64,000 bases of DNA from Alphaproteobacteria bacterium (GTDB lineage: Bacteria > Pseudomonadota > Alphaproteobacteria > UBA2966). The stretch lies in NCBI GenBank assembly GCA_018650465.1, contig JABIFY010000024.1, positions 1 through 64,000 of the forward strand. The letters are read 5' to 3'. The notes below the pieces were generated by a model, which was not told where the DNA came from, did no database searches, and was given only the letters and a program-made list of their open reading frames with translations. The translations under genes and the position numbers were made by a program. Below, in pieces: positions 27,582 through 48,077 of the stretch; the first letter of the stretch is position 1, and the number at the start of each line of letters is the position of its first letter.

Positions 27582-28427
27582 TCAGCCTTTGTCGCCGATC
27601 ACCAGTACGGGGACGTCGAACGTTGAGGCGATAGTTTCCATACCGGTTTCGATGAGGGCAGGAAGGCTGTTGGGCAACACCAGCAGTTCAATTGGCACAC
27701 GGTGGAGAACAGATTGCAGGCTGTGGAGTTGACTGTCCGGCAGGGTCTCAAAGTCAATTTCAAGACCCTTGCCCCGTGCCAGTTCTTCTACCCGGCCCCG
27801 CCCGTCGGATGATCTTGTCAACAGAACAAGCAGCCGTCCCCCGTCCCGAGAGGATACCTGGATGGAAACTTCAAGCGCCCGCTCAGCGAGACTACTCCCA
27901 TCATACAGACAGGCAACCGAGCCATGATACCGTCGGGATCCAGCGACCAAAACAGCCGTAGATCCCTGCAGTAACTGACGAGACATCGAGCTCAGTCGTT
28001 GGCCTTGTCCGAGGCGGCCACTGCTACGCCCCATGACGATCAGATCCACATCCATCGCCGCCGCCAAAGTGCGTGTCATCACGTCACCGCGATCCACCCG
28101 GAAGGTCCAGTCCAGGCCCTGTTCCGATGTTTCTGCCACCAGAGAAGCCCGGGCGCGACGGGCGGCAAGGCGAAGCTGGCGTTCCATGTCTGCCCGGTCA
28201 AAGCTTGACGCCGTCGCCGTGACGCTATGCACAACCTGACAGCAAGACAGTTCTCCCGCACGGAGCAGATTGTCATCTTCGATAAACAAACCTTCCAGTC
28301 TGGCCCGCATTCTTGATGCCAGACGCACCGCAATTTTTAATGCCGCCAGGCTTTCATCGGAGGTATCCAGGGGAATAAGGATCCTCGGTTTCTCCGGATC
28401 AAGAGAAGCCTTGCCCGGTCTGAACAT
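27582..28427 (-). CDS. Universal stress protein (two Usp-like halves)
   Basis: A 281-residue protein opening with RILIPLDTSDESLAALKIAVRLA, a Usp start. The nucleotide loop is degenerate (MGRSSGRLGQGQRLSSMSRQ), so ATP binding is doubtful. The second half (VACLYDGSSLAERALEV) is more divergent. Its start codon overlaps the Lon stop by one nucleotide, making it the last gene of the seven-gene operon. Confidence 0.85.
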   Translation of the reverse strand: MFRPGKASLDPEKPRILIPLDTSDESLAALKIAVRLASRMRARLEGLFIEDDNLLRAGELSCCQVVHSVTATASSFDRADMERQLRLAARRARASLVAETSEQGLDWTFRVDRGDVMTRTLAAAMDVDLIVMGRSSGRLGQGQRLSSMSRQLLQGSTAVLVAGSRRYHGSVACLYDGSSLAERALEVSIQVSSRDGGRLLVLLTRSSDGRGRVEELARGKGLEIDFETLPDSQLHSLQSVLHRVPIELLVLPNSLPALIETGMETIASTFDVPVLVIGDKG

Positions 28428-30853
28428 CAGTCATCCGCCTTCTTGCCGTCGCTCATTTTATCATGACTATCATCATGGCTTGCATTATGGCTTTCAGGCG
28501 GCCTGCTGTAATTTCTCAGATCATCGGCCATATCCCGCAGGCGGGTTTCAACCAGGGCATTTACCGTGCCCTCCGGGAAGACGCCTTTGTCATCAGCAAC
28601 GCCGCTCTGAACGCCGGTCAAGATTTCCACGCCCTGATCAATGGTCTCAACGGCATATATGGCAAAGTCGCCGTTTGTGCAGGCCTCAACCACATCAGCC
28701 CGTAGCATCAAGTGGCAAATGTTTGAGGCCGGGATCAACACACCCTGTCCCGGGCTGAAGCCACGCGCCTTGCAGATATCAAAAAAGCCTTCGATCTTTT
28801 CATTGACGCCACCGATGGGCTGGACTTCGCCTTTCTGGTTGACCGATCCGGTCACGGCAAAACATTGTTTGATCGGCAGCCCCGACAGCGCCGACAGCAG
28901 GCAGTAAAGCTCAGCTGAGGAGGCTGAATCGCCATCAATGCCCCCGTAGGATTGTTCGAAGACCAGACTGGCCGACAATGAAAGGGGACGGTCGAGGGCA
29001 TAGAGCCCGGAGAGAAAGGAGGACAGAATCAACACACCCTTGGAATGCAGGGGACCACCCAGTTCTACTTCTCGCTCAATATCGACGACCTGGCCTTTGC
29101 CCATGCGGACCCGGGCCGTAATCCGCGACGGCCCGCCAAAGGAATAACCACCCAGCGACATCACCGACAAGGCATTTATCTGCCCGACTCTTGACCCATC
29201 TGTATCAATAAGTTTGATGCCACGTGTAATCATTTCGTGGCTGCGTTCCCGCAGGCTGTCGACGCGCCGTATGCGCGTATCGATGGCCGTCTGCACGTCT
29301 TCGGCTGTCACAGTCCTGTCGCTGCTTTTCTCGGACCAATAATCCGCTTCACGAGCGCTGAATTCAATCAGGCGGGCGACAGCACCGGCATCAAATGCCT
29401 TCAGTTTTTCCTTCGTCGCAAGTCCGGCGATAACGTTGGCGTAGGTCGCCGTGCTTTCTTCGTCCCGGTCCATATCCGGGCCATAGTCGACAGAGACTTT
29501 GAACAAGTCGGCAAACTCCGGATCAAGCTGGTGCAGCATGTAATAAAGCCGGGGCGCGCCAATCAGAACAATTTTCAGGTCGAGGGGAATGGCTTCCGGC
29601 TCCAGAGAAACCGTACTGACCAGGCTGAGCACCTGACCGAGGGATTCGATTTTAACGAAGCCAGATATCAAGGCCCGCTTTAGTCCCTCATAGGCGTAGG
29701 GCTGGGTTAAAAGTTTGTAGGCGTCAATCAATAAATAACCGCCATTGGCCCGATGCAGAGCGCCGCCCTTGATCATGCTGAAATTGGTGATCAGCGCGCC
29801 CATCTCGGCGATATGTTCGATCCGGCCAACCAGGTTTGCATAAGTCGGCATATCTTCGTAAACCACCGGCGCGCCTGTACAAAGGGCATTATCCACAAGC
29901 AAATTGACCTCATACCGCTGGGCCAGGTCCGCTTCTGCATGTCCGGCGGCAGCCACGACCATGGCTTGCTGTCCGGCGTTCTCTGTACCACGGGCAATAA
30001 ATATGTCGGCGTTTTCGATGACGTCGGTTTTCAGGGCCGCAAGGTAGTTGACGACAGCGGGGAAAAGTTTGAAATCCGATTCAAGGGCATCCAACAAGTG
30101 TCCAACGGCATAGCGTGTGACCTCGCGGTTCAGCTCACGAATATCTTCCCGCCGCTCCTTGTCCCATTGCGGCAGTTGGCGAATGATTTCCTGGAGGTCG
30201 GATTGCAGTAACTCCAGATCAGCCTCCAGCTTGTTGCGTTCGGCTTCAGGCAGTTTGGCGAACGCCTCCGGGTTGATGACTTCGTCCCCTTTGACGGGTG
30301 CCAACGCCAGTCCAACGGGTGTTTTTAACAAGGTGATGTTTTTTTGCCCGGCCCGTTCCTGCAGTTCCGCAAAGACAACTTCCTGGCGTTCCTTGAAGGT
30401 CTCTTCTATGGCTTCCCGCCGGGTGCGGTAGTCTTCAGCTTCAAAGGCGGACGGGATCGCGGATTTCAGTTCGTCCACAAGTCGGGCTACGGCATCCCGC
30501 AGTCGAAGCCCCTGACCCGGTGGCAATTCGATCGCCGTCGGGCGGTGGGCATCAACAAAGTTGTTGACCAGGCACCAGTCAGAGGGCACCGGTTCGGCTG
30601 CGGCGCGTTGGTCCAGGATTTCGCGGATCGTGGAGTGACGGCCCGTTCCTTCCGGGCCATGCACAAACAGATTGTAGGCAGGGCGCCGAATACCGAGCCC
30701 AAAACGCGTCGCTTCCATGGCCCGCGCCTGACCGAGAACCCCTTGGGTGTTTTTGACCTCATCGGTCGTTGCAAAAGGCAGCGATTGCGGATCACAACGA
30801 CTGTAAAGTTGATCCGGAGACAGAGGGCTCGAAGTTTTTGCACCGATTATCAT
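28427..30853 (-). CDS. Lon-like ATP-dependent protease (LonH/YcbZ-type, S16)
   Basis: An 808-residue protein: N-terminal AAA-type region with the family's arginine-variant P-loop (GPEGTGRHST) and a GGYLLIDAYKLL Walker-B-like strand, then a C-terminal S16 protease domain with catalytic Ser643 (DGDSASS) and Lys686 (GGVNEKIEG). Cleaves proteins in the cytoplasm; COG1067-type enzymes lack the Lon substrate-recognition N-domain. The Met at 30853 follows AAGAGAT and starts the family sequence; the frame from 31000 intrudes into the ATPase gene. The tail is Asp/His/Lys-rich. Confidence 0.9.
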   Translation of the reverse strand: MIIGAKTSSPLSPDQLYSRCDPQSLPFATTDEVKNTQGVLGQARAMEATRFGLGIRRPAYNLFVHGPEGTGRHSTIREILDQRAAAEPVPSDWCLVNNFVDAHRPTAIELPPGQGLRLRDAVARLVDELKSAIPSAFEAEDYRTRREAIEETFKERQEVVFAELQERAGQKNITLLKTPVGLALAPVKGDEVINPEAFAKLPEAERNKLEADLELLQSDLQEIIRQLPQWDKERREDIRELNREVTRYAVGHLLDALESDFKLFPAVVNYLAALKTDVIENADIFIARGTENAGQQAMVVAAAGHAEADLAQRYEVNLLVDNALCTGAPVVYEDMPTYANLVGRIEHIAEMGALITNFSMIKGGALHRANGGYLLIDAYKLLTQPYAYEGLKRALISGFVKIESLGQVLSLVSTVSLEPEAIPLDLKIVLIGAPRLYYMLHQLDPEFADLFKVSVDYGPDMDRDEESTATYANVIAGLATKEKLKAFDAGAVARLIEFSAREADYWSEKSSDRTVTAEDVQTAIDTRIRRVDSLRERSHEMITRGIKLIDTDGSRVGQINALSVMSLGGYSFGGPSRITARVRMGKGQVVDIEREVELGGPLHSKGVLILSSFLSGLYALDRPLSLSASLVFEQSYGGIDGDSASSAELYCLLSALSGLPIKQCFAVTGSVNQKGEVQPIGGVNEKIEGFFDICKARGFSPGQGVLIPASNICHLMLRADVVEACTNGDFAIYAVETIDQGVEILTGVQSGVADDKGVFPEGTVNALVETRLRDMADDLRNYSRPPESHNASHDDSHDKMSDGKKADD

Positions 30854-30866
30854 TTTGATCTCTTGG

Positions 30867-33599
30867 TTATTTCGCCTGAGCCTGTGTGATGGCTTTAAAT
30901 CGTCGGGCAACGGCCTTCTCCAGTTCCACCAGGGAAAACAGCAGCAGGCCAAAAAGGAAAACTGCGATCCAGTCAAAGGCATCGATTGGCGTGACGCCAA
31001 ACAGGGTTTGCATGACCGGCAGATAGGTAAACACTAATTGAAACAGGACGACCAAGGCAACCGCGATCAGTACTGGTTTACTGTCGGTTAACCCGCTTCT
31101 GTTCCAGGAGTTACCGGCAATGCGTCGGCAGCTGAACAGATAGCCGATTTCACCCATGACCAATGCGTTGACCGCCACCGTCCGGGCTGTCTCCAGGCCA
31201 GCTCCCAGGGTCCGTTGCCATTCGAACAATCCAAATGCCCCGGCCAGCAGCAGGATAGACACGTAAATTGTTCGCCAGGTCATCAGAGGGGACAGAATAG
31301 AGGCATCCGGCGTTCGGGGTGGACGTGACATCACATCGATCTCAGACTGTTCAAAAGCCAGGGCCAGACCCAGTGTGACTGCCGTAACCATATTTACCCA
31401 GAGTATTTGCACCGGTGTGATCGGATACTCCTGGGCCAGCATGACAGCGGCGAGGATCGTCAGGGCCTGACCGCCACTGACGGGCAGAAGAAATAAAATG
31501 CTTTTGCGCAGATTGTCATAGACTGTGCGGCCTTCTTCCACTGCATGCATGATCGAAGAAAAGTTATCGTCTGTGAGCACCATCTCGGCGGCTTCGCGGG
31601 CGGCGTCTGTTCCCTTGCGGCCCATGGCGATGCCAATATCGGCGCGTTTCAGAGCTGGCGCATCGTTCACGCCATCACCGGTCATGGCGACGATATGTCC
31701 CTGGGCCTGCAGCACCTCAACAAGCCGCAATTTGTGGGCCGGGCTGGTGCGGGCAAAAACGTCGGCGTCTCTGGCGGCGATGCTGAAGTCCCCATCGGAC
31801 ATTTTATCCAGATCGCTGCCAGACAGCACTTGATGATCATGGCCAAGCCCGAACTGACTGCCAATGGCTCTGGCCGTTGTCGCATGATCCCCGGTAATCA
31901 TCTTGACCAGGGTGCCTGACGCCAGGCACTGGTTGACCGCTTGAATGGCCTCGCTCCGAGGCGGATCAATCAGGCCGAACATGGCAATCAGTGTCAGGTC
32001 ATGTTCCACATCGTCGAAGCGCAGATGCAAATGATCGGGGTCTGTCGCCCGACTGGCGATGGCCAAAACCCGTTGCGCCCCGGAGGCCATCATTTCGATT
32101 TGTCCGAGCCAATAATCCCGATCAAGAGCATCTTCTGATTCGTTGCTGCGCTGGAAGATACACATTTCAAGGATACGTTCCGGCGCACCTTTGACGTAGA
32201 TCAGACCATGACCTTCGTGATCGTGATTCAGGGTCGCCATGAATTTGTGCACGGATTCAAACGGGATCAAATCCGTTCTGGGCCGTAATGCCTGTTCAAG
32301 CTGGACATCCAATCCGGCTTTCATGCCCACCGCCATCAGCGCCCCGTCCGTGGGGTTGCCTTGTAGATGCCAGTGTCCGTCCATATCAACCAGTTCGGCA
32401 TCGTTGCACAAAACGGCCGCCCGGGCTGCCGTGACCAGATCCGAATGCCGATTGGCCAGAACCGGTTCATCATTCAAATGGAATTCACCAACCGGCGCGT
32501 AACCACTGCCGGTAACCGTATAGCTATCGCGGGCGGTGACGACAGTCTGCACCATCAATTCGTTATGGGTGAGGGTGCCGGTTTTATCAGAGCAAATCAC
32601 GGTAACCGAGCCCAGGGTTTCTACTGCCGGCAACCGGCGGATGATGGCATTGCGCCGCGCCATGCGGGTCACACCGATGGCCAGGGTAATCGTCATGACC
32701 GCAGGCAGTCCTTCAGGGATTGCAGCTACCGCCAGCCCGACCACGGCCATGAACATCTCGTCGAGCCGATATCCCTGGAGTAGATGGCCATAGAGGAAGG
32801 TGGCCACAGAGATCGCCAGAATGGCCAGTGAGAGCCAGCGACTGAATATGTCGATCTTGCGCAGCAACGGTGTGGCCAGTGCCTGCACCCCGGAAATCAT
32901 CGAACTGACCTTGCCGATTTCGGTTCGCTCGGCCGTTTCGACAACAACGCCGGTGCCCTTGCCGTAGGTAACAACCGTTCCGGCAAAAGCCATACAACGC
33001 CGGTCGCCCGGACCGCAGGATGGATCAACCGGTTCAGTCGCCTTTTCCACTGCTTCTGATTCGCCGGTCAGGGCTGATTCTTGTATCTGCAGGCTTTTTA
33101 CGTCAAACAGACGCAGGTCCGCGGGAACTCGATCACCCGACTGCACCAGGACAATGTCACCCGGCACCAGGTCTTCCGCCGGGACCGTCAGGATCTTGCC
33201 GCCCCGGCGCACCCGGGACTGCGGCGACAGCATATTCTGGATGGCCTCCAGTGCGCGCTCCGATTTGCCCTCCTGGACAAAGCCGACGATGGCGTTGATA
33301 ACAACCACGCCGACAATCACACCGGTGTCGACCCACTGTTCCAGCAAGGCTGTTACCACAGCCGACCCGATCAGCACATAAAGCAGCATGTTATTGAACT
33401 GCGCCAGAAACCGAACAACTGGCCCGCTGCGTTTTGCCGGTTTGAGAAGGTTGGGTCCATGCACAGACAAACGCGCCAGCACCACCTCTGCGCCAAGGCC
33501 CATATCATCGCTGCCCAATTCATCCCGAACATCCTTGACCGTACGACTATGCCATCCGGCAGGCTGCATTCCAGAATTCGACTCAGGCTCCGTCATCAA
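30867..33599 (-). CDS. P2-type cation-transporting ATPase (Ca2+/Mn2+-like)
   Basis: A 910-residue inner-membrane pump with TGES in the actuator domain, the phosphorylation motif [10 protein letters not shown] near residue 340 and the hinge motif [20 protein letters not shown]. Helix 4 has [12 protein letters not shown] as in calcium pumps, while helix 6 has [15 protein letters not shown] rather than the SERCA acidic pair, so the ion is uncertain. The ATG follows AAAGGTGC. It lies 6 nt after porB and 13 nt before lon. Confidence 0.92.
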
Positions 33600-38271: not shown

Positions 38272-38811
38272 ATGATACGTACTATACTTGTCGCAACGGA
38301 CGGTTCTGACCACGCAAAAAAAGCTTTGACTCTGGCAAGTGACCTTGGCGCCAAATACGGCGCAAAGTTGATTTTGTTGCATGTGCCTTTGTTTAACGTC
38401 GGGTCGGAAACCCTGCATGCAGTTGCAACCCGAAGCGGTCTTCCAAAAAAACTCCGGGATCTGCTGGATAATTACGAAATCGATTTTCAATTGGGTGTTG
38501 CCACAGCAGGCATGGGGACTGCCGGAGGTGCTGGTTTCGCGCCGCCACCCAGGGAACTTGTCGCGGCAATTGGCCAACAGATTATTGCGCGCGCTGAAAA
38601 AATAACATCCAAGGCTGGCGTGAAAAAAGTAACGTCAATGATTACTGAAGGCGACCCGGCAGACGTAATTCTCAATACGGCAGCGAAATGCAAGGCTGAC
38701 ATGATCATTCTGGGCAGTCGCGGCCTGAGTGATTTCAAGGGACTGCTGTTTGGCAGTGTTTCACACAAGGTCAGTGGCCAGGCTGATTGCACCTGTGTGA
38801 CAGTGAAATAA
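38272..38811 (+). CDS. Universal stress protein, single UspA domain, ATP-binding type
   Basis: A 179-residue UspA protein (MIRTILVATDGSDHAKKAL start) with the intact nucleotide loop G-x2-G-x9-GS in LGSRGLSDFKGLLFGSVS. An approximately 30-residue insertion in the middle (GVATAGMGTAGGAGFAPP) is unusual. A weak AAAGG precedes the ATG. Divergent from the seven-gene operon and 141 nt before the symporter gene, which may be in its transcript. Confidence 0.92.
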   Translation: MIRTILVATDGSDHAKKALTLASDLGAKYGAKLILLHVPLFNVGSETLHAVATRSGLPKKLRDLLDNYEIDFQLGVATAGMGTAGGAGFAPPPRELVAAIGQQIIARAEKITSKAGVKKVTSMITEGDPADVILNTAAKCKADMIILGSRGLSDFKGLLFGSVSHKVSGQADCTCVTVK

Positions 38812-38952: not shown

Positions 38953-40404
38953 ATGATGTTGAAACAATCCAAAGATTCCACGAAGAATTCTCTGCGTCCT
39001 GTCACGGTGCTCGCCGGAACCGTTCTGGGAATGGGCGTCATCATGTCGCCTGTACCGGAAGGTTTTTCGCCGGAGGCCTGGAAGGTGCTCGGTGTCGCTC
39101 TCTGGATGGCTTTTTGGTGGCTGACTGAAGCCTTGCCGGTTTCCGTGACCGCTCTCTTGCCTCTGATCGTCTTCCCGGTCCTGGGCCTTTCTGATTTCAA
39201 GACTTCTGCCGCACCGTACGCCCATCCGCTGATTTTTCTGTTCATGGGCGGCTTCATGATAGCCAAGGCCATCGAAGCCTGGAATCTGCACAAACGCATC
39301 GCCCTCCTGATCGTGCGGGCCTTCGGCACAAGGCCCGATTATCTGATCGCCGGCTTCATGCTGGCCACGGCCACATTGAGCATGTGGGTCAGTAATACGG
39401 CGACCACAGTCATGATGTTGCCCATCGCTATTTCCATCATCAGTGTGCTGACCGATAAGATGGATCAGCAGACTGCCGATAAAACGGCGACGGCCCTGCT
39501 GCTGGGGGTCGCCTATTCCGCCAGTATCGGCGGCGTCGGCACCTTGGTGGGATCCCCGCCCAATGCCCTGCTGGCAGCCTTCGCCCAGGAACGGTTCGGC
39601 GTCGAAGTGGGGTTCGCCAAATGGATGGCCATCGGCTTACCCGTCGTTCTGATCATGCTTCCGCTGGCTTGGCTGTTACTGACCCGGGTCACTTGCCCCG
39701 TGTCGCGCCGCCCCATTCCCGGCGCCGATGAAGTCATCAGGGACGAATTAAAAGCCCTGGGACCCATGACCATCGAGGAAAAACGTGTGCTGGCCATTTT
39801 CGTCCTCACGGCTTTGAGTTGGATTTTCCGACCCTTGATCACTATGGCCTTTCCCGGCATGGGCCTGACCGATTCCGGCATCGCCCTGATCGGCGCTCTG
39901 TCACTTTTCATTATTCCCACCACCAAGGGAATTGGAACCAGCCTTTTGACCTGGAACCGGGCCGTCTCTCTGCCCTGGGGCGTGCTGCTGCTTTTTGGTG
40001 GAGGCTTAAGCCTTGCCGAGGCCATTTCCAGGAGTGGGTTGGCGGATATCGTCGGCCGGGGTCTGGTTGGGTTGGAAGGCTTTCCGACCATCGTCCTGGT
40101 GGTCGCTGTGGCGACCCTGATCGTATTCTTGACCGAGATCACCTCCAACACGGCGACCACAGCGGTTTTCCTGCCCATCGTCGCCACGGTAGCGGTGAGC
40201 GCAGGCATTGCTCCCCTCGAACTCATCATCCCCGTGGCCCTGGCGGCCTCCTGCGCCTTCATGATGCCCGTAGCGACGCCGCCAAACGCCATCATTTTCT
40301 CCAGCGAAAAACTGACGGTGGCCCAGATGGCCAAGGCCGGTTTTCTGCTCAATCTGATTGCCATTTCTGTGATTGTTTTCATTACCTGGGCCTTGGTAAT
40401 CTGA
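38953..40404 (+). CDS. DASS-family sodium/dicarboxylate symporter (SLC13)
   Basis: A 483-residue membrane protein with about 11-12 helices and both family SNT motifs (VSNTATTVMMLP and TSNTATTAVFLP), which bind sodium and the substrate carboxylates. It imports succinate, malate, sulfate or similar anions; in this setting C4 acids are most likely. Two adjacent ATG codons occur at the start and no strong ribosome site is visible. A terminator-like hairpin follows. Confidence 0.92.
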   Translation: MMLKQSKDSTKNSLRPVTVLAGTVLGMGVIMSPVPEGFSPEAWKVLGVALWMAFWWLTEALPVSVTALLPLIVFPVLGLSDFKTSAAPYAHPLIFLFMGGFMIAKAIEAWNLHKRIALLIVRAFGTRPDYLIAGFMLATATLSMWVSNTATTVMMLPIAISIISVLTDKMDQQTADKTATALLLGVAYSASIGGVGTLVGSPPNALLAAFAQERFGVEVGFAKWMAIGLPVVLIMLPLAWLLLTRVTCPVSRRPIPGADEVIRDELKALGPMTIEEKRVLAIFVLTALSWIFRPLITMAFPGMGLTDSGIALIGALSLFIIPTTKGIGTSLLTWNRAVSLPWGVLLLFGGGLSLAEAISRSGLADIVGRGLVGLEGFPTIVLVVAVATLIVFLTEITSNTATTAVFLPIVATVAVSAGIAPLELIIPVALAASCAFMMPVATPPNAIIFSSEKLTVAQMAKAGFLLNLIAISVIVFITWALVI

Positions 40405-40651: not shown

Positions 40652-41689
40652 ATGGGAATTATGACGGGTTTCAAGGCGACTGCCTTGGTGTTGGGGGCGA
40701 GCGCCTTTGTATCTGGGTCCGCAATCGCTGCGATGGTGGATGGACCTGCAGTGAAGTGGAATCATTCGGTCTGGGGAAAGAAGCGAGCCTTTACAGCGTC
40801 TGCTGAAAAGCTTGCCGAGATTCTCAAGGAGAAGACCGGCGGTAAATTCATCTACAAAATTCATTATGGTGCAGCGCTTTCCAAGTCGAAAGAAAACCTG
40901 GATGGAATCAAGCTTGGTGCATTCCAGGCAGCAACCTTCTGTAACTTTTATAGCCCTGGCAAGAATCCGGCTTATATGATCTTTTCTTTGCCGTTCCTGC
41001 CCATGACAGACTGGAAAAGCTCTCTGGCTGTGCGCAAGGCTCTTTTGAAGCACCCGGCATTGGTTGCAGACATGGATCGCTGGAATGCCATGGCCTATAC
41101 CACGACTTTGCTGCCAACCTATCAATTGATGGGTAAGGGTGCCCCACCCATGAAGATAGCTGACTGGGATGGCAAGCGTGTCCGTGCCGGTGGCGGCATT
41201 GGAACGGCCATGGAATTGTTGGGCTCGACCCGTACGACCATGCCAGCCCCCGAAGTTTATACAGCAATCCAGCGCGGCACGATTGATGCGGTGTCGTTCC
41301 CGTTCACCTATGCCTTCGCAGCCTACAAGATTGACGAAGTCTCGCAGTGGTACACCGGCAACCTGTCACCGGGAACGGCGGAATGCCCGATCATCTTCAA
41401 CAAAGATGCCTATGCCAAACTGCCAGCACAGTATCAAAAACTGTTGCAGGATTCGATTGACGAGGTCGATCAGGCTTCAATTGCTGCCTACAAGAAGCAT
41501 GACCTGAAAAACCTGCCGAACTTCAAAGCAAACCTGAAGGAAATCGTTTATCCGGCTGACGAATTGGCCAAGTTCCACGCCAAGGCTGGCAAGCCTGTCT
41601 GGGATGAGTGGGTTGCAAAGAACAAGGGCAAATTTGATGCTGCCAGTGTTCTCAAGACTGTCTTTGATGTTGCTGCAAGCGTAAAGTAA
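40652..41689 (+). CDS. TRAP transporter solute-binding protein (DctP family)
   Basis: A 345-residue periplasmic receptor with a signal peptide (KATALVLGASAFVSGSAIAA) and DctP-type features including the AGGGIGTAMELLGSTRTTMPAPEVYTA-type region (residues about 170-195) that holds the substrate-carboxylate arginine. It delivers an organic acid to the DctQM membrane part encoded downstream. AGGGAG lies upstream of the ATG. Ligand unknown. Confidence 0.93.
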   Translation: MGIMTGFKATALVLGASAFVSGSAIAAMVDGPAVKWNHSVWGKKRAFTASAEKLAEILKEKTGGKFIYKIHYGAALSKSKENLDGIKLGAFQAATFCNFYSPGKNPAYMIFSLPFLPMTDWKSSLAVRKALLKHPALVADMDRWNAMAYTTTLLPTYQLMGKGAPPMKIADWDGKRVRAGGGIGTAMELLGSTRTTMPAPEVYTAIQRGTIDAVSFPFTYAFAAYKIDEVSQWYTGNLSPGTAECPIIFNKDAYAKLPAQYQKLLQDSIDEVDQASIAAYKKHDLKNLPNFKANLKEIVYPADELAKFHAKAGKPVWDEWVAKNKGKFDAASVLKTVFDVAASVK

Positions 41690-41700
41690 GTGTTCTGAAT

Positions 41701-41732
41701 GGGCCGCTCCTGCGGGAGTGGCCCATTTTTTT
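41701..41732 (+). terminator. Hairpin with T-run between dctP and dctQ
   Basis: GGGCCGCTCC / GGGAGTGGCCC, a 10-bp stem with one G-T pair and a TGC loop, followed by seven T. It lies inside the TRAP operon and probably attenuates, making the binding protein more abundant than the permease. Confidence 0.8.
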
Positions 41733-41750
41733 CCAAGGGGGGTTCCGGCG

Positions 41751-42368
41751 ATGACGGACGCGGGCAATGACACATCTGTTGGTATGTTGGTGGCTTTTGA
41801 TCGCTGGCTGATCCCGGTGGAAAACCTGTTCAATCTGATTGCCGGTCTGTTTATTTTTGGCTTGATGATCCTCGGGATATTTCAGGTTGTGGGTCGGCAG
41901 GTCTTCAATATTCCTGTCGCCGGCTATATCGATTGGGTTGAGGTTTCCATGGCGGTTTTTGCCTTTATGGGCGCCGCCTATTGCCAACGCACCGGCACCC
42001 ATGTGCGCATGGAATTGTTTCTGACAAAAGTTCGTCTGCGCACACGATGGAGTATGGAGATTATGGGCACGGTCGGTGCCCTGATCATCATCAGCGTTCT
42101 CATTATCTATGGCTATGACCATACCATGCGCGCCTTTACCATTGGCGACAGTACAATTGATTCTGAATTGCCCATGTGGCCGTCCAAAGCGGTGGTGCCA
42201 ATCGCCTTTTCACTTTTGTGGCTCAGGCTTTTTGTCCAGCTTCTTGGCTTTATGAGATTGTTTCGAAATCCTGAAGCCAAACCCGTTGCCGTGCCGATCG
42301 TCGAATCCGTGGAAGAGCAGGCTGTCCATGAAATTGAAGACGCCCTCGTGGACGAGGAGCTCAAATAA
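41751..42368 (+). CDS. TRAP transporter small membrane subunit (DctQ family)
   Basis: A 205-residue protein with four predicted helices and the DctQ-type WVEVSMAVFAFMGAAYCQRTGTHVRME block. The ATG at 41751 follows GGGGGG at a good distance; the frame extends to 41718 across the terminator. It ends in a TAATG overlap with the large subunit. The C-terminal tail is acidic (VEEQAVHEIEDALVDEEL). Confidence 0.9.
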   Translation: MTDAGNDTSVGMLVAFDRWLIPVENLFNLIAGLFIFGLMILGIFQVVGRQVFNIPVAGYIDWVEVSMAVFAFMGAAYCQRTGTHVRMELFLTKVRLRTRWSMEIMGTVGALIIISVLIIYGYDHTMRAFTIGDSTIDSELPMWPSKAVVPIAFSLLWLRLFVQLLGFMRLFRNPEAKPVAVPIVESVEEQAVHEIEDALVDEELK

Positions 42369-43672
42369 TGGATGAAAGCGATATTGGTCTTATCGGCGTC
42401 GGCGTTCTTGTCTTCCTTGTATTTACGGGCATGCGCGTTGTTTATGCAGCATCATTAGTCGGGTTAGGGGGGCTTGTTGCCATCGTTGGCTGGGATGCAG
42501 GGGCCGGTATCATCGGCACCATCCCGCACTCCAAATCAGTTTCCTACACCCTGAGCGTTCTGCCGATGTTCATTCTTATCGGCTTTCTGGCTTTCCATGC
42601 CGGTTTCACCAACGCCATTTTCGACGCTGCACGCAAGTGGATTGGCTGGGTGCCTGGTGGACTAGCCGTCGCGTCTGTCTTTGCGGCAGCAGGCTTTGCC
42701 GCTGTCTCCGGTGCCAGCACAGCCACGGCCGCAGTTTTCAGCCGCATTGCCATCCCCGAAATGCTGAAATATGGCTATGACCGGAAACTTGCCGCAGGTG
42801 TTGTTGCTGCGGGCGGCACACTGGCCTCGCTGATTCCACCAAGCGCTATTCTGGTGATCTATGCGGTGATCGTTGAACAATCAGTTGGGGCCTTGCTGCT
42901 GGCAGGTTTTATTCCCGGTGTTTTCTCTGCCCTGATCTATGTTGTTATGATTATCGGCATGGCCAAGAAGAACCCGGAATCAGCACCTGCCGTAGGTGGT
43001 TACAGTTGGGGAGAACGGTTTCGGGCGATCCCCGGAACGTTGCCAATCGTCTTCGTTATTGGCATTATTTTTTCATCTCTATATCTTGGCTGGGCCACGC
43101 CAACCGAAGCTGGCGCATTGGGGGCAGGCGTTGTTTTCGTCGTTGCCCTGCTGCACGGCATGCGCTGGAAATCCTTTCAGGAAGCCCTGCTGGATACGGC
43201 AAAACTGACAGCGATGATCTTTTCGATTATCTGGGGTGTGTTGGCTTTCGTGCGCTTTCTGGGTTTTGCCGGACTGCCTGAAGCCTTTGCCACCTGGGTC
43301 GTTGGTCTACCGCTGCCACCCATGTTGATCATGATCGGTATTCTGCTTTTCTATGCCGTATTAGGCATGTTCATGGACGCCATCGGCATGCTGTTGTTGA
43401 CCTTGCCCGTGGTCTACCCGGCTGTTATTGCCTTGGGATTTGATCCCATCTGGTTTGGCATCATTGTGGTTAAGATGGCAGAGATTTGTCTGATTACACC
43501 GCCCATTGGCCTGAACTGTTATGTCGTCAATGGCGTGCGACCGGACATACCCCTGCAAGATGTCTTCAAGGGGATTGCGCCGTTTTTCGTAGCCGATGTC
43601 GTAACTGTGGGGCTGTTGCTGGCCTTCCCCGGCATTATCCTCTGGCTACCAAACCTCGTGATGGGAAGCTGA
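42368..43672 (+). CDS. TRAP transporter large membrane subunit (DctM family)
   Basis: A 434-residue channel subunit with about 12 helices and the conserved GFAAVSGASTATAAVFSRIAIPEM and LIPPSAILVIYAV regions of DctM. It couples sodium flow to solute import with DctP and DctQ. One-nucleotide overlap with dctQ. A hairpin with T-run follows the stop. Confidence 0.93.
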   Translation: MDESDIGLIGVGVLVFLVFTGMRVVYAASLVGLGGLVAIVGWDAGAGIIGTIPHSKSVSYTLSVLPMFILIGFLAFHAGFTNAIFDAARKWIGWVPGGLAVASVFAAAGFAAVSGASTATAAVFSRIAIPEMLKYGYDRKLAAGVVAAGGTLASLIPPSAILVIYAVIVEQSVGALLLAGFIPGVFSALIYVVMIIGMAKKNPESAPAVGGYSWGERFRAIPGTLPIVFVIGIIFSSLYLGWATPTEAGALGAGVVFVVALLHGMRWKSFQEALLDTAKLTAMIFSIIWGVLAFVRFLGFAGLPEAFATWVVGLPLPPMLIMIGILLFYAVLGMFMDAIGMLLLTLPVVYPAVIALGFDPIWFGIIVVKMAEICLITPPIGLNCYVVNGVRPDIPLQDVFKGIAPFFVADVVTVGLLLAFPGIILWLPNLVMGS

Positions 43673-44542: not shown

Positions 44543-45385
44543 ATGCCCGTTTTCCTGACTTATGATGGTTCCGTCAACGCCGACTGGATAGCCCACTATG
44601 CCTTGCGTATGGCCGCTCATACGGAGGAGAGAAATCTCAACCTGGTGTATGTCGAGGACGCCGCCGTGCCATCACATCTGTTGTTGGCCGGGCTTAAGGC
44701 CATTAAAAACCGGGCCGATAAACTCGGAATCACGGTTATCAACAAAATTTTACCCATGCGACGGGGTGTTCTCGGCGGACTGACTGAATATTTGCCACCA
44801 GGACCGGAGACCTTCGTGGTCTGCGGCACACGCGCCAGGAAAGGCCGTCGCGGCTTCTTTCGCGGCACGATCTCCCAGCGTCTGATGCAACTGCAGCTTT
44901 ACAATGTTCTGGCCTTGCGGGTTGTCCAACCGGGTTTGCTGGGGCAACCACAAACCGTGTTGGCACCGGTGGCCGGCCGATTGGAGGGCGTGCTCTTCGG
45001 CCTGCAGATTCTGCGGTTGCTGGCTCCGGATATCAACCGCCTGCATCTTTTACAAGTCATTGAACGGAAGCGGAGCATATTGTCCCAGCTGCCATCCTCC
45101 AAGGGGAAGTCGCTGCGCAAGGAAGCCCTCAGCCAATTGCGTGGCATTAAAACCCAAATCAAGGAAGAACTCGAATTGCCCGCCGGGGCCATCGAACTGC
45201 TTGTCCGCATCGCAGACGATTGGACCCGGGAAACTATCCTGCAGGCCAACTACCTGCATAGCGAACTTGTCTTCGTCGAAGCTTCCCGACCAGGCCTGGC
45301 CCAACGTTTTCTGCCCGGCGGACCCGTCGAAACTCTGCTGGCGAACGCCAACTGTGACGTTGCCGTCTTCCGGGGCGTCGGCTGA
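44543..45385 (+). CDS. Universal stress protein-like protein coupled to P-type ATPase
   Basis: A 280-residue protein with a Usp-like first half (MPVFLTYDGSVNADWIAHYALRMA) and a second half starting near residue 135. The nucleotide loop is altered (GTRARKGRRGFFRGTIS keeps the spacing but has Ala for the second Gly). ACGGAGAAG precedes the ATG at 44543. Its stop lies one nucleotide before the ATPase start, so the two products are probably made together, suggesting a regulatory or accessory role for the pump. Confidence 0.82.
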   Translation: MPVFLTYDGSVNADWIAHYALRMAAHTEERNLNLVYVEDAAVPSHLLLAGLKAIKNRADKLGITVINKILPMRRGVLGGLTEYLPPGPETFVVCGTRARKGRRGFFRGTISQRLMQLQLYNVLALRVVQPGLLGQPQTVLAPVAGRLEGVLFGLQILRLLAPDINRLHLLQVIERKRSILSQLPSSKGKSLRKEALSQLRGIKTQIKEELELPAGAIELLVRIADDWTRETILQANYLHSELVFVEASRPGLAQRFLPGGPVETLLANANCDVAVFRGVG

Positions 45386-45386
45386 A

Positions 45387-48077
45387 ATGCCCGGACAAAT
45401 CCATAATGCTCCAACCGAAGCCGTTTATTCGTTACTTCATTCACGGTCTGAGGGCCTGACCTGTTCCGAAGTGGCTGCCCGTATGGCGGAGATCGGCGGC
45501 AACACGCTTGAAGCCCCAAAAGGTATCTGGTGGCTGCAGAGCCTGGGCCGCCAATTCAGCAATTTCTTTAGTCTGCTGCTCGATTTTTCGGCATTGATCT
45601 GTTTCGTCGCCGACCGCATACAGCCGGGTGAGCAGATGTACATCCTTGGTTGGGCGCTGCTCGGTGTTTCAGTGCTCAACGCCATGTTTAGTTTTGTTCA
45701 GGAATTCCGGGCTGAGCGGGCGATGGTCGAACTACGTAAAATGCTGCCACAGCAAGTCAATGTCCGGCGCGACGGCGCGGACAGCGCGGTGGATGCCGCA
45801 GAGTTGGTGCCGGGGGACGTGATTGCACTACGGGAAGGCGACAAGGTACCGGCCGATGCGCGCCTTGTCGAAGTTCACGATCTGACCGTTAACAACGCCC
45901 CCCTTACAGGCGAGGCAAGACCGCTGGTACTTGAAGCCAGCGGGGTTGAAGGTTTACTCACCGACAGCCACAACATCGCCTTTGCCGGCTGCACAGTGCT
46001 CCGCGGTTCGGGTCGGGCGGTCGTCTTTGCCACGGGTTACCGAACCCAGTTCGGCCGTATCGCCAAGCTCTCTCAGAGTGTCAGGCATAATGCCTCGCCT
46101 CTGCAGCAGGAAATCGATCACATGGTCCGGATCCTCACCATCGTCGCGGTGACCATGGGACTGGTTTTCTTCGCTTACGGTGTCATCGCCGAGCGATCAC
46201 TGTGGGTCAGTCTTGTCTTCATGATGGGCATAATCGTTGCGAACGTGCCCGAAGGCCTGCTGCCTACCTTCACGTTGTCGCTGGCCATGGGTAGCCTGAG
46301 GATGGCCCGACGCAATGTACTCGTGAAAGAGTTGAACGCGGTCGAAGCAATGGGATCTGTGCACGTCATATGCACCGATAAAACCGGAACCCTGACACTC
46401 AACCGATTGACCGTGACACGACTGGCGCAGCCGGGCGGTGAGGACTATCCGGCTGGCACGGAGCGGCGGGAATTCCTCGACTTGGCGACCGCGACAACTG
46501 ATATCAGTTTCAATGAAAATGGCCTCAGCGGGGACCCCCTCGATGTTGCAATTGCGGAGCGGTTAACCTCAGAGGGTGGTAATCCCGCTGAAATATTGGG
46601 CCGGACAATTCAGCGCTTTGCGTTCGACGCAAACCGCCGTAGCGCTGGCGGCATCTTACAACGCGATGATCAATCGGTTCTCGTGGTAAAGGGTGCCTGG
46701 GAATCCCTGCGTCCTATTCTATCTGCCGTTTGCGTCACCCCGGGCGGCGATCCACAGCCGGTCAACGCAGAGCAACTGGCGGCCGCTGATGCCACAGTTC
46801 ACAAACTCGCCTCGCTTGGTCAGCGGGTAATTGCCGTGGCCCATCGACCGCTTAATGATGCGGACAAAACCCAAAAGGCTGACGAGCTGGAGCAGAATCT
46901 CGTGCTCGAAGGCTTCATCGGCTTTGAGGATCCGATCCGACCCGAAGTTCCGGATGCGACCTCACGATGCCGGGAGGCTGGAATCGGCATGATCATTGTC
47001 ACCGGCGACCACCCGGAGACAGCAGAGGCCGTCGCCCGCCAAGCCGGTATCCTACCGCCTGGCGACGGTGGGCCGGCCACTGTTACAGGTGATCAACTGG
47101 CCGATATGCACGAACGAGAACTCATCGAACGGCTTGAGAACGGCGCCGCTGTCTTCGCCCGCACCAACCCCGAGCAGAAGATGAAGATCGTCACTGCGCT
47201 ACATCAGATGGGGCGAGTCGTCGCTGTGACTGGTGACGGCGTCAATGATGCACCGGCGCTCAAGGCCGCCGATGTTGGCATCGCCATGGGGCGTGACGGC
47301 ACCGACGTTGCGCGTGAAGCGGCCCAGGTAATCCTGCTGGATGACAATTTCGCCTCCATCGTTGCCGGAATCGAGGAAGGCCGCACGATTTTTTCCAATA
47401 TTCAGAAATTTACCAATTATGTGCTGGTCAGCAACGGGCCGGAAATTCTGCCCTACCTGATCTACATGTTGTTTCCGGTGCCGCTTGCATTGACGGTTAT
47501 TCAGATTCTCACTATTGACCTCGGAACCGACATTATTCCGTCGATGGCTCTGGGTCAGGAAAAACCGCGCCGGGGGATCATGCGTCAGCCTCCGCGCAAA
47601 CGCCATGAAAGGCTTATGTCGTGGCGGCTGATAGCCCACAGCTATTTGTTCCTTGGACTCATCGAAGCCATGTTTTCACTCAGCCTTTTTTTCTGGGTGC
47701 TTGTAGCTGGCGGTTGGACATGGGGCCAAGAGCTGGGTTCGGACGACATCCTCTATCGCGCGGCGACCGGCATAACACTTGCCTCCATACTGCTGATGCA
47801 GATCGGTAATCTATTGGGTCGCCGCTCGCGCTACGGAAGCGGTCTGGACCGCTCTATTTTTTCGAACCCATTGATGCTCATTGGCATTTTGGTTGAAGCA
47901 GCAATTTCCTGGGCAATCCTTTATTATCCACCGTTCAGCCAGATCATCGGTACTGGTCCAGTCGACCTGCATATCTATCTCGTCGCCTGGCTCGGTTGCC
48001 CTCTGGTCTTCCTCGCCGATTTGGGCCGTAAACGCCTGGCCAAGGCGTGGCTGACCCATGACCAGGCTGGCGCATAG
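45387..48077 (+). CDS. P-type ATPase with Na,K-ATPase-like (P2C) signatures
   Basis: An 896-residue pump. Motifs: LTGEA in the actuator domain, CTDKTGTLTLN phosphorylation site, [20 protein letters not shown] hinge. Helix 4 reads VANVPEGLLPTFTLS, helix 5 VSNGPEILPYLIY and helix 6 TIDLGTDIIPSMALGQE. These match animal Na,K-ATPase motifs (NVPEGLL, SNIPEITP, DLGTDMVPA) better than calcium pumps, so Na+ or K+/H+ exchange is suggested. The real start is ATG 45387; the open frame upstream to 44904 overlaps usp out of frame. No beta subunit is seen. Confidence 0.9.
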   Translation: MPGQIHNAPTEAVYSLLHSRSEGLTCSEVAARMAEIGGNTLEAPKGIWWLQSLGRQFSNFFSLLLDFSALICFVADRIQPGEQMYILGWALLGVSVLNAMFSFVQEFRAERAMVELRKMLPQQVNVRRDGADSAVDAAELVPGDVIALREGDKVPADARLVEVHDLTVNNAPLTGEARPLVLEASGVEGLLTDSHNIAFAGCTVLRGSGRAVVFATGYRTQFGRIAKLSQSVRHNASPLQQEIDHMVRILTIVAVTMGLVFFAYGVIAERSLWVSLVFMMGIIVANVPEGLLPTFTLSLAMGSLRMARRNVLVKELNAVEAMGSVHVICTDKTGTLTLNRLTVTRLAQPGGEDYPAGTERREFLDLATATTDISFNENGLSGDPLDVAIAERLTSEGGNPAEILGRTIQRFAFDANRRSAGGILQRDDQSVLVVKGAWESLRPILSAVCVTPGGDPQPVNAEQLAAADATVHKLASLGQRVIAVAHRPLNDADKTQKADELEQNLVLEGFIGFEDPIRPEVPDATSRCREAGIGMIIVTGDHPETAEAVARQAGILPPGDGGPATVTGDQLADMHERELIERLENGAAVFARTNPEQKMKIVTALHQMGRVVAVTGDGVNDAPALKAADVGIAMGRDGTDVAREAAQVILLDDNFASIVAGIEEGRTIFSNIQKFTNYVLVSNGPEILPYLIYMLFPVPLALTVIQILTIDLGTDIIPSMALGQEKPRRGIMRQPPRKRHERLMSWRLIAHSYLFLGLIEAMFSLSLFFWVLVAGGWTWGQELGSDDILYRAATGITLASILLMQIGNLLGRRSRYGSGLDRSIFSNPLMLIGILVEAAISWAILYYPPFSQIIGTGPVDLHIYLVAWLGCPLVFLADLGRKRLAKAWLTHDQAGA

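Follow-up and report, generated by a model that had tools for sequence, protein, structure and literature searches.

A tandem Usp gene paired with a P2C-type ATPase gene in an alphaproteobacterium and related loci

Organization of the locus

The window (the whole 64,000-nucleotide stretch of alphaproteobacterial DNA analysed here) carries on its forward strand two tightly packed genes. The upstream gene (44543-45385, +; ATG at 44543, TGA at 45385 in the list of reading frames) encodes a tandem Usp protein of 280 AA, recognized by its Pfam match, its AlphaFold model and a Foldseek search. The downstream gene (45387-48077, +; ATG at 45387, stop ending at 48077) encodes a P-type ATPase of 896 AA, assigned to the P2C type by profiles, trees and a structural model. 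They are separated by a single base, A45386 (45386-45386, +), in agreement with the preliminary description, which placed the ATPase start one nucleotide past the Usp gene. Stoichiometric production of the two proteins, which had been deduced from this spacing, does not follow, since a one-base gap allows translational coupling at most. Promoter and terminator scans gave no excess over shuffled sequence, and the window yielded no tRNA and no Rfam match.

Other transport genes occur nearby. A complete DctP-DctQ-DctM operon for a TRAP transporter (40652-43672, +) lies upstream of the Usp gene, with 870 bases between them. Another Usp gene (38272-38811, +) adjoins a gene for a Na+:sulfate/citrate-type symporter (38953-40404).

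The reverse strand carries a second ATPase neighbourhood (27582-33599, -), in which a P2 ATPase gene (30867-33599, -) is followed on the same strand by a LonB-like protease gene and a Usp gene (27582-28427) of a different type from the pump-linked one. This ATPase is SPCA/LMCA-like by sequence. It keeps IPEGL in M4 and lacks the usual M5 and M6 cation ligands, its M6 reading VNMVTAVT. Column counts suggest that the M6 change is shared by L062, L063, L065 and L066. Its substrate may be something other than a simple cation.

Classification of the ATPase

The ATPase shows P2 domains in Pfam. Among NCBIfam subfamilies TIGR01106 (Na,H/K alpha) scores best with 573 bits, ahead of PMR1 (481), SERCA (411) and PMCA (380), yet this score is under the curated cut-off of 946 bits. 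No prokaryote genome searched and none of the 14 control genomes passes that cut-off, which therefore seems tuned to the animal branch rather than to the clade. Among PDB sequences Na,K alpha3 is the best match (495 bits), followed by the Listeria Ca2+ pump LMCA1 (380) and SERCA (331). By these two sets of scores the resemblance to Na,K-ATPase lies well above chance, in line with the preliminary description, which found the helix motifs closer to animal Na,K-ATPase than to SERCA or PMCA.

Relatives were gathered from named genome records and species genomes, and two trees were built: a quick one of 58 rows with SH-aLRT support and a careful one of 26 rows with bootstraps. The P2A group is represented in them by LMCA1 and SPCA1, with SERCA, PMCA and ENA rows absent. 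In both, the ATPase falls into one clade (100/100 in the careful tree, SH-aLRT of 100 in the quick tree) with P2C-like proteins of other bacteria and the Na,K-ATPase of animals. Outside this clade lie LMCA1 and SPCA1, the P2A-like paralog of the window and two SERCA-like proteins from archaea. With LMCA1 and SPCA1 standing for P2A, the phylogeny thus places the pump with Na,K-ATPase and not with P2A (100/100), and the grouping that would have told against the preliminary description did not appear.

Within P2C, the window ATPase belongs to a subclade with a long stem (100/100), here called subclade U, whose members are 53-70% identical to it. The sister of the animal Na,K pumps is another bacterial group (L016, L017, L060; 100/98) and not subclade U. 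In the present sampling the animal pumps have as sisters bacterial P2C pumps that retain D926 and T774 (L016, L017, L019, L060 and L061), of which L016 and L060 share about 47% identity with human Na,K alpha1.

Structural comparison gives the same picture. The AlphaFold model of the ATPase has a pLDDT of 84.9, and its best 49 Foldseek matches consist entirely of Na,K or H,K pumps, SERCA first appearing at rank 50. The TM-score to the E1.3Na+ state is 0.85. Trees, ion-site residues and folds concur: within the sampling used, the window ATPase is of P2C type.

Ion-binding sites of the pump

Ion-site columns were numbered by alignment to human Na,K alpha1, and 27 members of subclade U were compared. 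The motifs NVPEGLL, NGPEILP and DLGTDIIP, highlighted in the preliminary description, are present in M4, M5 (AA 683-689) and M6 (AA 711-718) respectively. NVPEGLL (AA 286-292; 46242-46262, +) contains E289, the equivalent of E327. It is followed by the DKTGT phosphorylation motif (AA 331-335; 46377-46391, +) with the catalytic D331, and by the N-domain motif KGAWE (46689-46703, +), in which K435 corresponds to K501. The Trp of this last motif replaces the usual Pro in all 27 subclade members. The M5 segment YVLVSNGPE (47418-47444, +) keeps the equivalents of Y771, S775, N776 and E779 and has Val in place of T772 and T774. DLGTD in M6 (47517-47531, +) supplies those of D804 and D808, while QIGN in M8 (47799-47810, +) keeps Q923 and has Asn in place of D926.

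All site I and II ligands (E327, N776, E779, D804 and D808) are therefore kept, as E289, N683, E686, D711 and D715. Across the subclade E327, Y771, S775, N776, E779, D804 and Q923 are found in 27/27 members, D808 and E954 in 26/27. The D804 position is Asn in all nine P2A-like rows. Site III of the window ATPase retains Y771, Q923 and E954 and shows T774 to V and D926 to N replacements. The first position is V or A throughout subclade U (27/27), whereas 18 of the 20 other bacterial P2C proteins compared keep T. The second is N in 27/27, but also in 15 of those 20 proteins, so that this change is not peculiar to the subclade. T772 is V in all members. The likeness to Na,K-ATPase that the preliminary description saw in the helix motifs thus needs correction for the ion site, which is not identical to that of Na,K-ATPase: at site III the T774 and D926 side chains are replaced in all 27 sequences.

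Judged from these residues, subclade U resembles Na,K-ATPase at sites I and II and departs from it at site III. Since the site III side chains differ from those of Na,K-ATPase, the transported ion and the stoichiometry could differ too, and we infer from the changed site an altered, possibly reduced, stoichiometry. Gastric H,K pumps carry a Lys (K791) where the Na,K type has S775. This position is Ser in 27/27 members, which favours chemistry of the Na,K type.

Some P2C-like pumps depart further from this pattern. The Usp-linked pump at L053:1474-4212 has a changed core site (D808 to N, with M5 SNAPEIVAVM). Two actinobacterial pumps, L089:4959-7685 and L090:4001-6547, have a different site (M5 YIFAHxTPE, M6 D(L/V)GTE). 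No Usp of the pump-linked type occurs in the stretches read around these two.

The Usp protein and its putative nucleotide site

The Usp protein matches PF00582 with 35.9 bits (cut-off 24; 1.4e-8), as do the Usp proteins of 27/27 relatives. Its AlphaFold model (pLDDT 91.6) shows two Usp domains in a single chain. The nearest structures in Foldseek are the tandem Usp proteins Rv2623 and TTHA0350 (with ATP); regulatory domains of KCC/NKCC transporters come next.

As criterion for an ATP-binding Usp, the motif G-2X-G-9X-G-(S/T) together with the Asp of DGS was used. The DGS motif (AA 8-10; 44564-44572, +), part of the putative nucleotide site, is invariant in the 27 aligned sequences. The N-domain carries a near-canonical motif, G95-TR-A98-(9X)-G108-T109 (44825-44869, +), in which the second Gly is replaced. 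G95 and T109 are invariant in the alignment, the second Gly occurs in none of the sequences and the third is variable. The corresponding motif of the C-domain is degenerate. An inter-domain motif, RVVQPGLLGQP (AA 126-136; 44918-44950, +), was found by alignment. Its P130, G131 and G134 are invariant, and VVQPGLLG is a mark of the pump-linked Usp family.

Known Usp proteins tolerate loss of the second Gly: this residue is present in just half of the solved structures, and AF0826 binds dAMP without it (PMC3673472). TTHA0350 binds two ATP despite a degenerate second domain (PMC3673472). Nucleotide binding by the window Usp through its near-canonical N-domain site is therefore plausible, which leaves the nucleotide-sensing partner of the preliminary description a candidate.

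Distribution of the Usp-pump pair

Subclade U was found in 29 genomes, 28 of which have readable DNA upstream of the pump. In 27 of these 28 a homologous Usp gene lies directly upstream, and a pairing unique to the source strain, the outcome that would have told against the preliminary description, is rejected. With gene starts in the relatives chosen by script, most of the distances from Usp stop to ATPase start are -4, -1 or 0 to +5 nt, and the two genes of the relatives mostly overlap, by 4 or 1 nt. The paired genomes are Rhodospirillaceae-related, of the order Chromatiales, or Myxococcota. They include the named records of a Rhodospirillaceae genome, Allochromatium and Sandaracinus. The other carriers come from the orders to which Allochromatium and the Rhodospirillaceae genome belong and from the phylum of Sandaracinus. 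The one further genome sampled from the source genus yielded no pump of this kind at the cut-off applied, indicating a patchy presence.

This association is specific to the subclade. Twenty more distant bacterial P2C loci have no such Usp upstream, profile search included. In tblastn searches the pump-linked Usp type is present in exactly one copy, adjoining the pump, in 12/12 paired genomes tested, and is absent from seven P2C genomes without the pair. The sole exception is G1056 (L038), which has a pump of subclade U and no detectable Usp of the linked type in its genome. No further gene family is conserved beside the pair in related loci, and no plasmid homologues of the Usp were found.

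Pairwise distances of Usp and ATPase are correlated (r=0.82; 0 of 2000 permutations as high). This fits joint inheritance and can be explained by shared descent alone, so that it is no proof of interaction. A docking patch for the Usp was sought on the ATPase: the 17 subclade-specific positions scatter over all domains and form no cluster.

The novelty that the preliminary description saw in a nucleotide-sensing partner for a bacterial P2C pump does not extend to the pump, as prokaryotic P2C pumps are known (PMC9609216, PMC10654040): 44 prokaryotic alpha subunits have been analysed (PMC9609216), and archaeal P2C pumps have been discussed, their role being listed as an open question (PMC10654040). 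No characterisation of any prokaryotic P2C pump, and no report of a Usp linked to one, was found in the open-licence literature. What appears to be unreported is the Usp-linked subclade, bacterial P2C pumps themselves being already known.

Proposed function and alternative interpretations

The reading we favour, with moderate confidence, is that of a P2C pump that exports Na+, works without a beta subunit and has a Usp as its own regulator. The ATPase would act as a single-subunit (beta-less) pump of the inner membrane, driven by ATP and most likely moving Na+ out in exchange for K+ (or H+). The Usp would probably be coupled to it translationally and would most likely serve as its dedicated cytosolic regulator, tuning activity to the nucleotide/energy or osmotic state. 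This role is proposed by analogy with TeaD, the C-terminal domain of KCC/NKCC, Rv2623-Rv1747 and UspC-Kdp. We infer that the exported ion is Na+, that the Usp binds the pump physically and that nucleotide is required. A stronger proposal, which we hold only tentatively and rather doubt, is that the sodium pump of these bacteria has the tandem Usp as a stable cytosolic subunit gated by nucleotide, coupling it to the energy or osmotic state. If true, the Usp would do on the cytosolic side what beta/FXYD subunits do for animal pumps, and would parallel, by convergence, the Usp-like domain that regulates KCC/NKCC transporters.

Alternatives exist for each partner. An identity of the ATPase as an ordinary Ca2+ pump of PacL/SERCA type, resembling Na,K motifs by chance, could draw on the fold common to all P2 pumps and on the PMR1 and SERCA profile scores of 411-481 bits. 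However, the protein has the P2C-type D804 (Asn in P2A-like proteins), Q923, E954 and P778-E779; trees and Foldseek disagree with such an identity and the P2A-like paralog of the window separates cleanly from it. Trees, ion-site residues and folds all being against it, this identity is rejected, within the sampling used, as very improbable. A pump within the P2C clade that moves another ion or works with another stoichiometry (e.g. H+ out/K+ in, or two Na+ per cycle), site III having been dismantled, deserves more weight, although we judge it somewhat unlikely. The replacement of T774 and D926 in 27/27 members and of T772 in all speaks for it, but sites I and II are intact, the Lys of gastric H,K pumps is missing at the S775 position, and the Asn at D926 is shared with 15 of 20 other bacterial P2C proteins.

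As for the Usp, it might be an independent stress-survival protein sharing a transcript with the pump, the two being merely co-expressed under salt or hypoxic stress. Usp proteins and P-type ATPases can belong to common stress regulons, the window has two further Usp genes (those at 27582-28427 and 38272-38811) as well as the second ATPase-Usp neighbourhood, and G1056 carries the pump without the Usp. Yet one Usp type is tied to one pump subclade in several bacterial groups, with start and stop overlapping or abutting, is found nowhere else in the tested genomes and has no other conserved neighbour beside it, which makes independence unlikely. The TRAP operon on the same strand suggests a different target, since the transporter that the Usp protein TeaD regulates is of the TRAP kind. 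Against this, 870 bases separate DctM from the Usp gene, the ATPase follows the Usp at every related pair and no TRAP gene family recurs beside the pair. Regulation of the TRAP transporter in the manner of TeaD rather than of the pump is rejected, the gap and the TRAP-less related loci making it scarcely credible.

The Usp-linked subclade gives a handle on when prokaryotic P2C pumps switch on and offers a simple two-gene test system. If the Usp binds the pump, P-type ATPases would be regulated in a way new for them, and ion transporters that have recruited Usp-fold regulators would include, besides TRAP and SLC12, one more kind. The changes at site III provide a natural experiment on the evolution of the third Na+ site.

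Comparison with known systems

Animal Na,K-ATPases export three Na+ and import two K+ per ATP and are sensitive to ouabain. The window pump shares a clade with Na,K/H,K-ATPase alpha subunits (P2C; 100/100), is about 40% identical to human alpha1 over aligned columns, and has in common with Na,K alpha the ligands E327, N776, E779, D804 and D808, Q923, E954 and the E1.3Na+ fold (TM 0.85). Unlike Na,K alpha, it has V at T774 and T772 and N at D926, is shorter (896 AA), has TWGQ in the M7-M8 loop in place of the SYGQ assembly motif and has an attached Usp gene. Prokaryotic alpha subunits lack the SYGQ motif (PMC9609216). A PF00287 search for beta subunits gave no match in seven genomes, the control being equally silent. 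The prokaryotic P2C pumps without a Usp gene, those of the 20 Usp-less loci and of the archaeal and bacterial sets in PMC10654040 and PMC9609216, belong to the same clade (39-45% identity) and share NVPEGLL and mostly DLGTD. They differ by an M5 that usually retains T774 (YILTSNIPE), by KGAPE or KGALE instead of KGAWE and by the absence of an upstream Usp.

Rv2623 (3cis) and TTHA0350 (3ab8, with ATP) also have two Usp domains per chain and are the best fold matches of the window Usp. Identity is about 15-18%, however, and the window protein lacks the second Gly in its N-domain and has a degenerate C-domain motif; no linked P-type pump is described for either. The C-terminal domain of KCC/NKCC, the next Foldseek group, has a tandem Usp-like fold and regulates a cation transporter, and ATP is bound in KCC1 (PMC8280820). 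In contrast to the window Usp, it is fused to a secondary chloride cotransporter, and no sequence-level kinship has been shown. TeaD is likewise a Usp tied to a membrane transporter: as described in PMC8280820, it regulates TeaABC, its deletion potentiates transport and ATP binding promotes oligomerisation. TeaABC is a secondary TRAP transporter, while the Usp of the window is a tandem one and accompanies a P-type pump. Rv2623-Rv1747 and UspC-Kdp are further precedents (PMC5549992).
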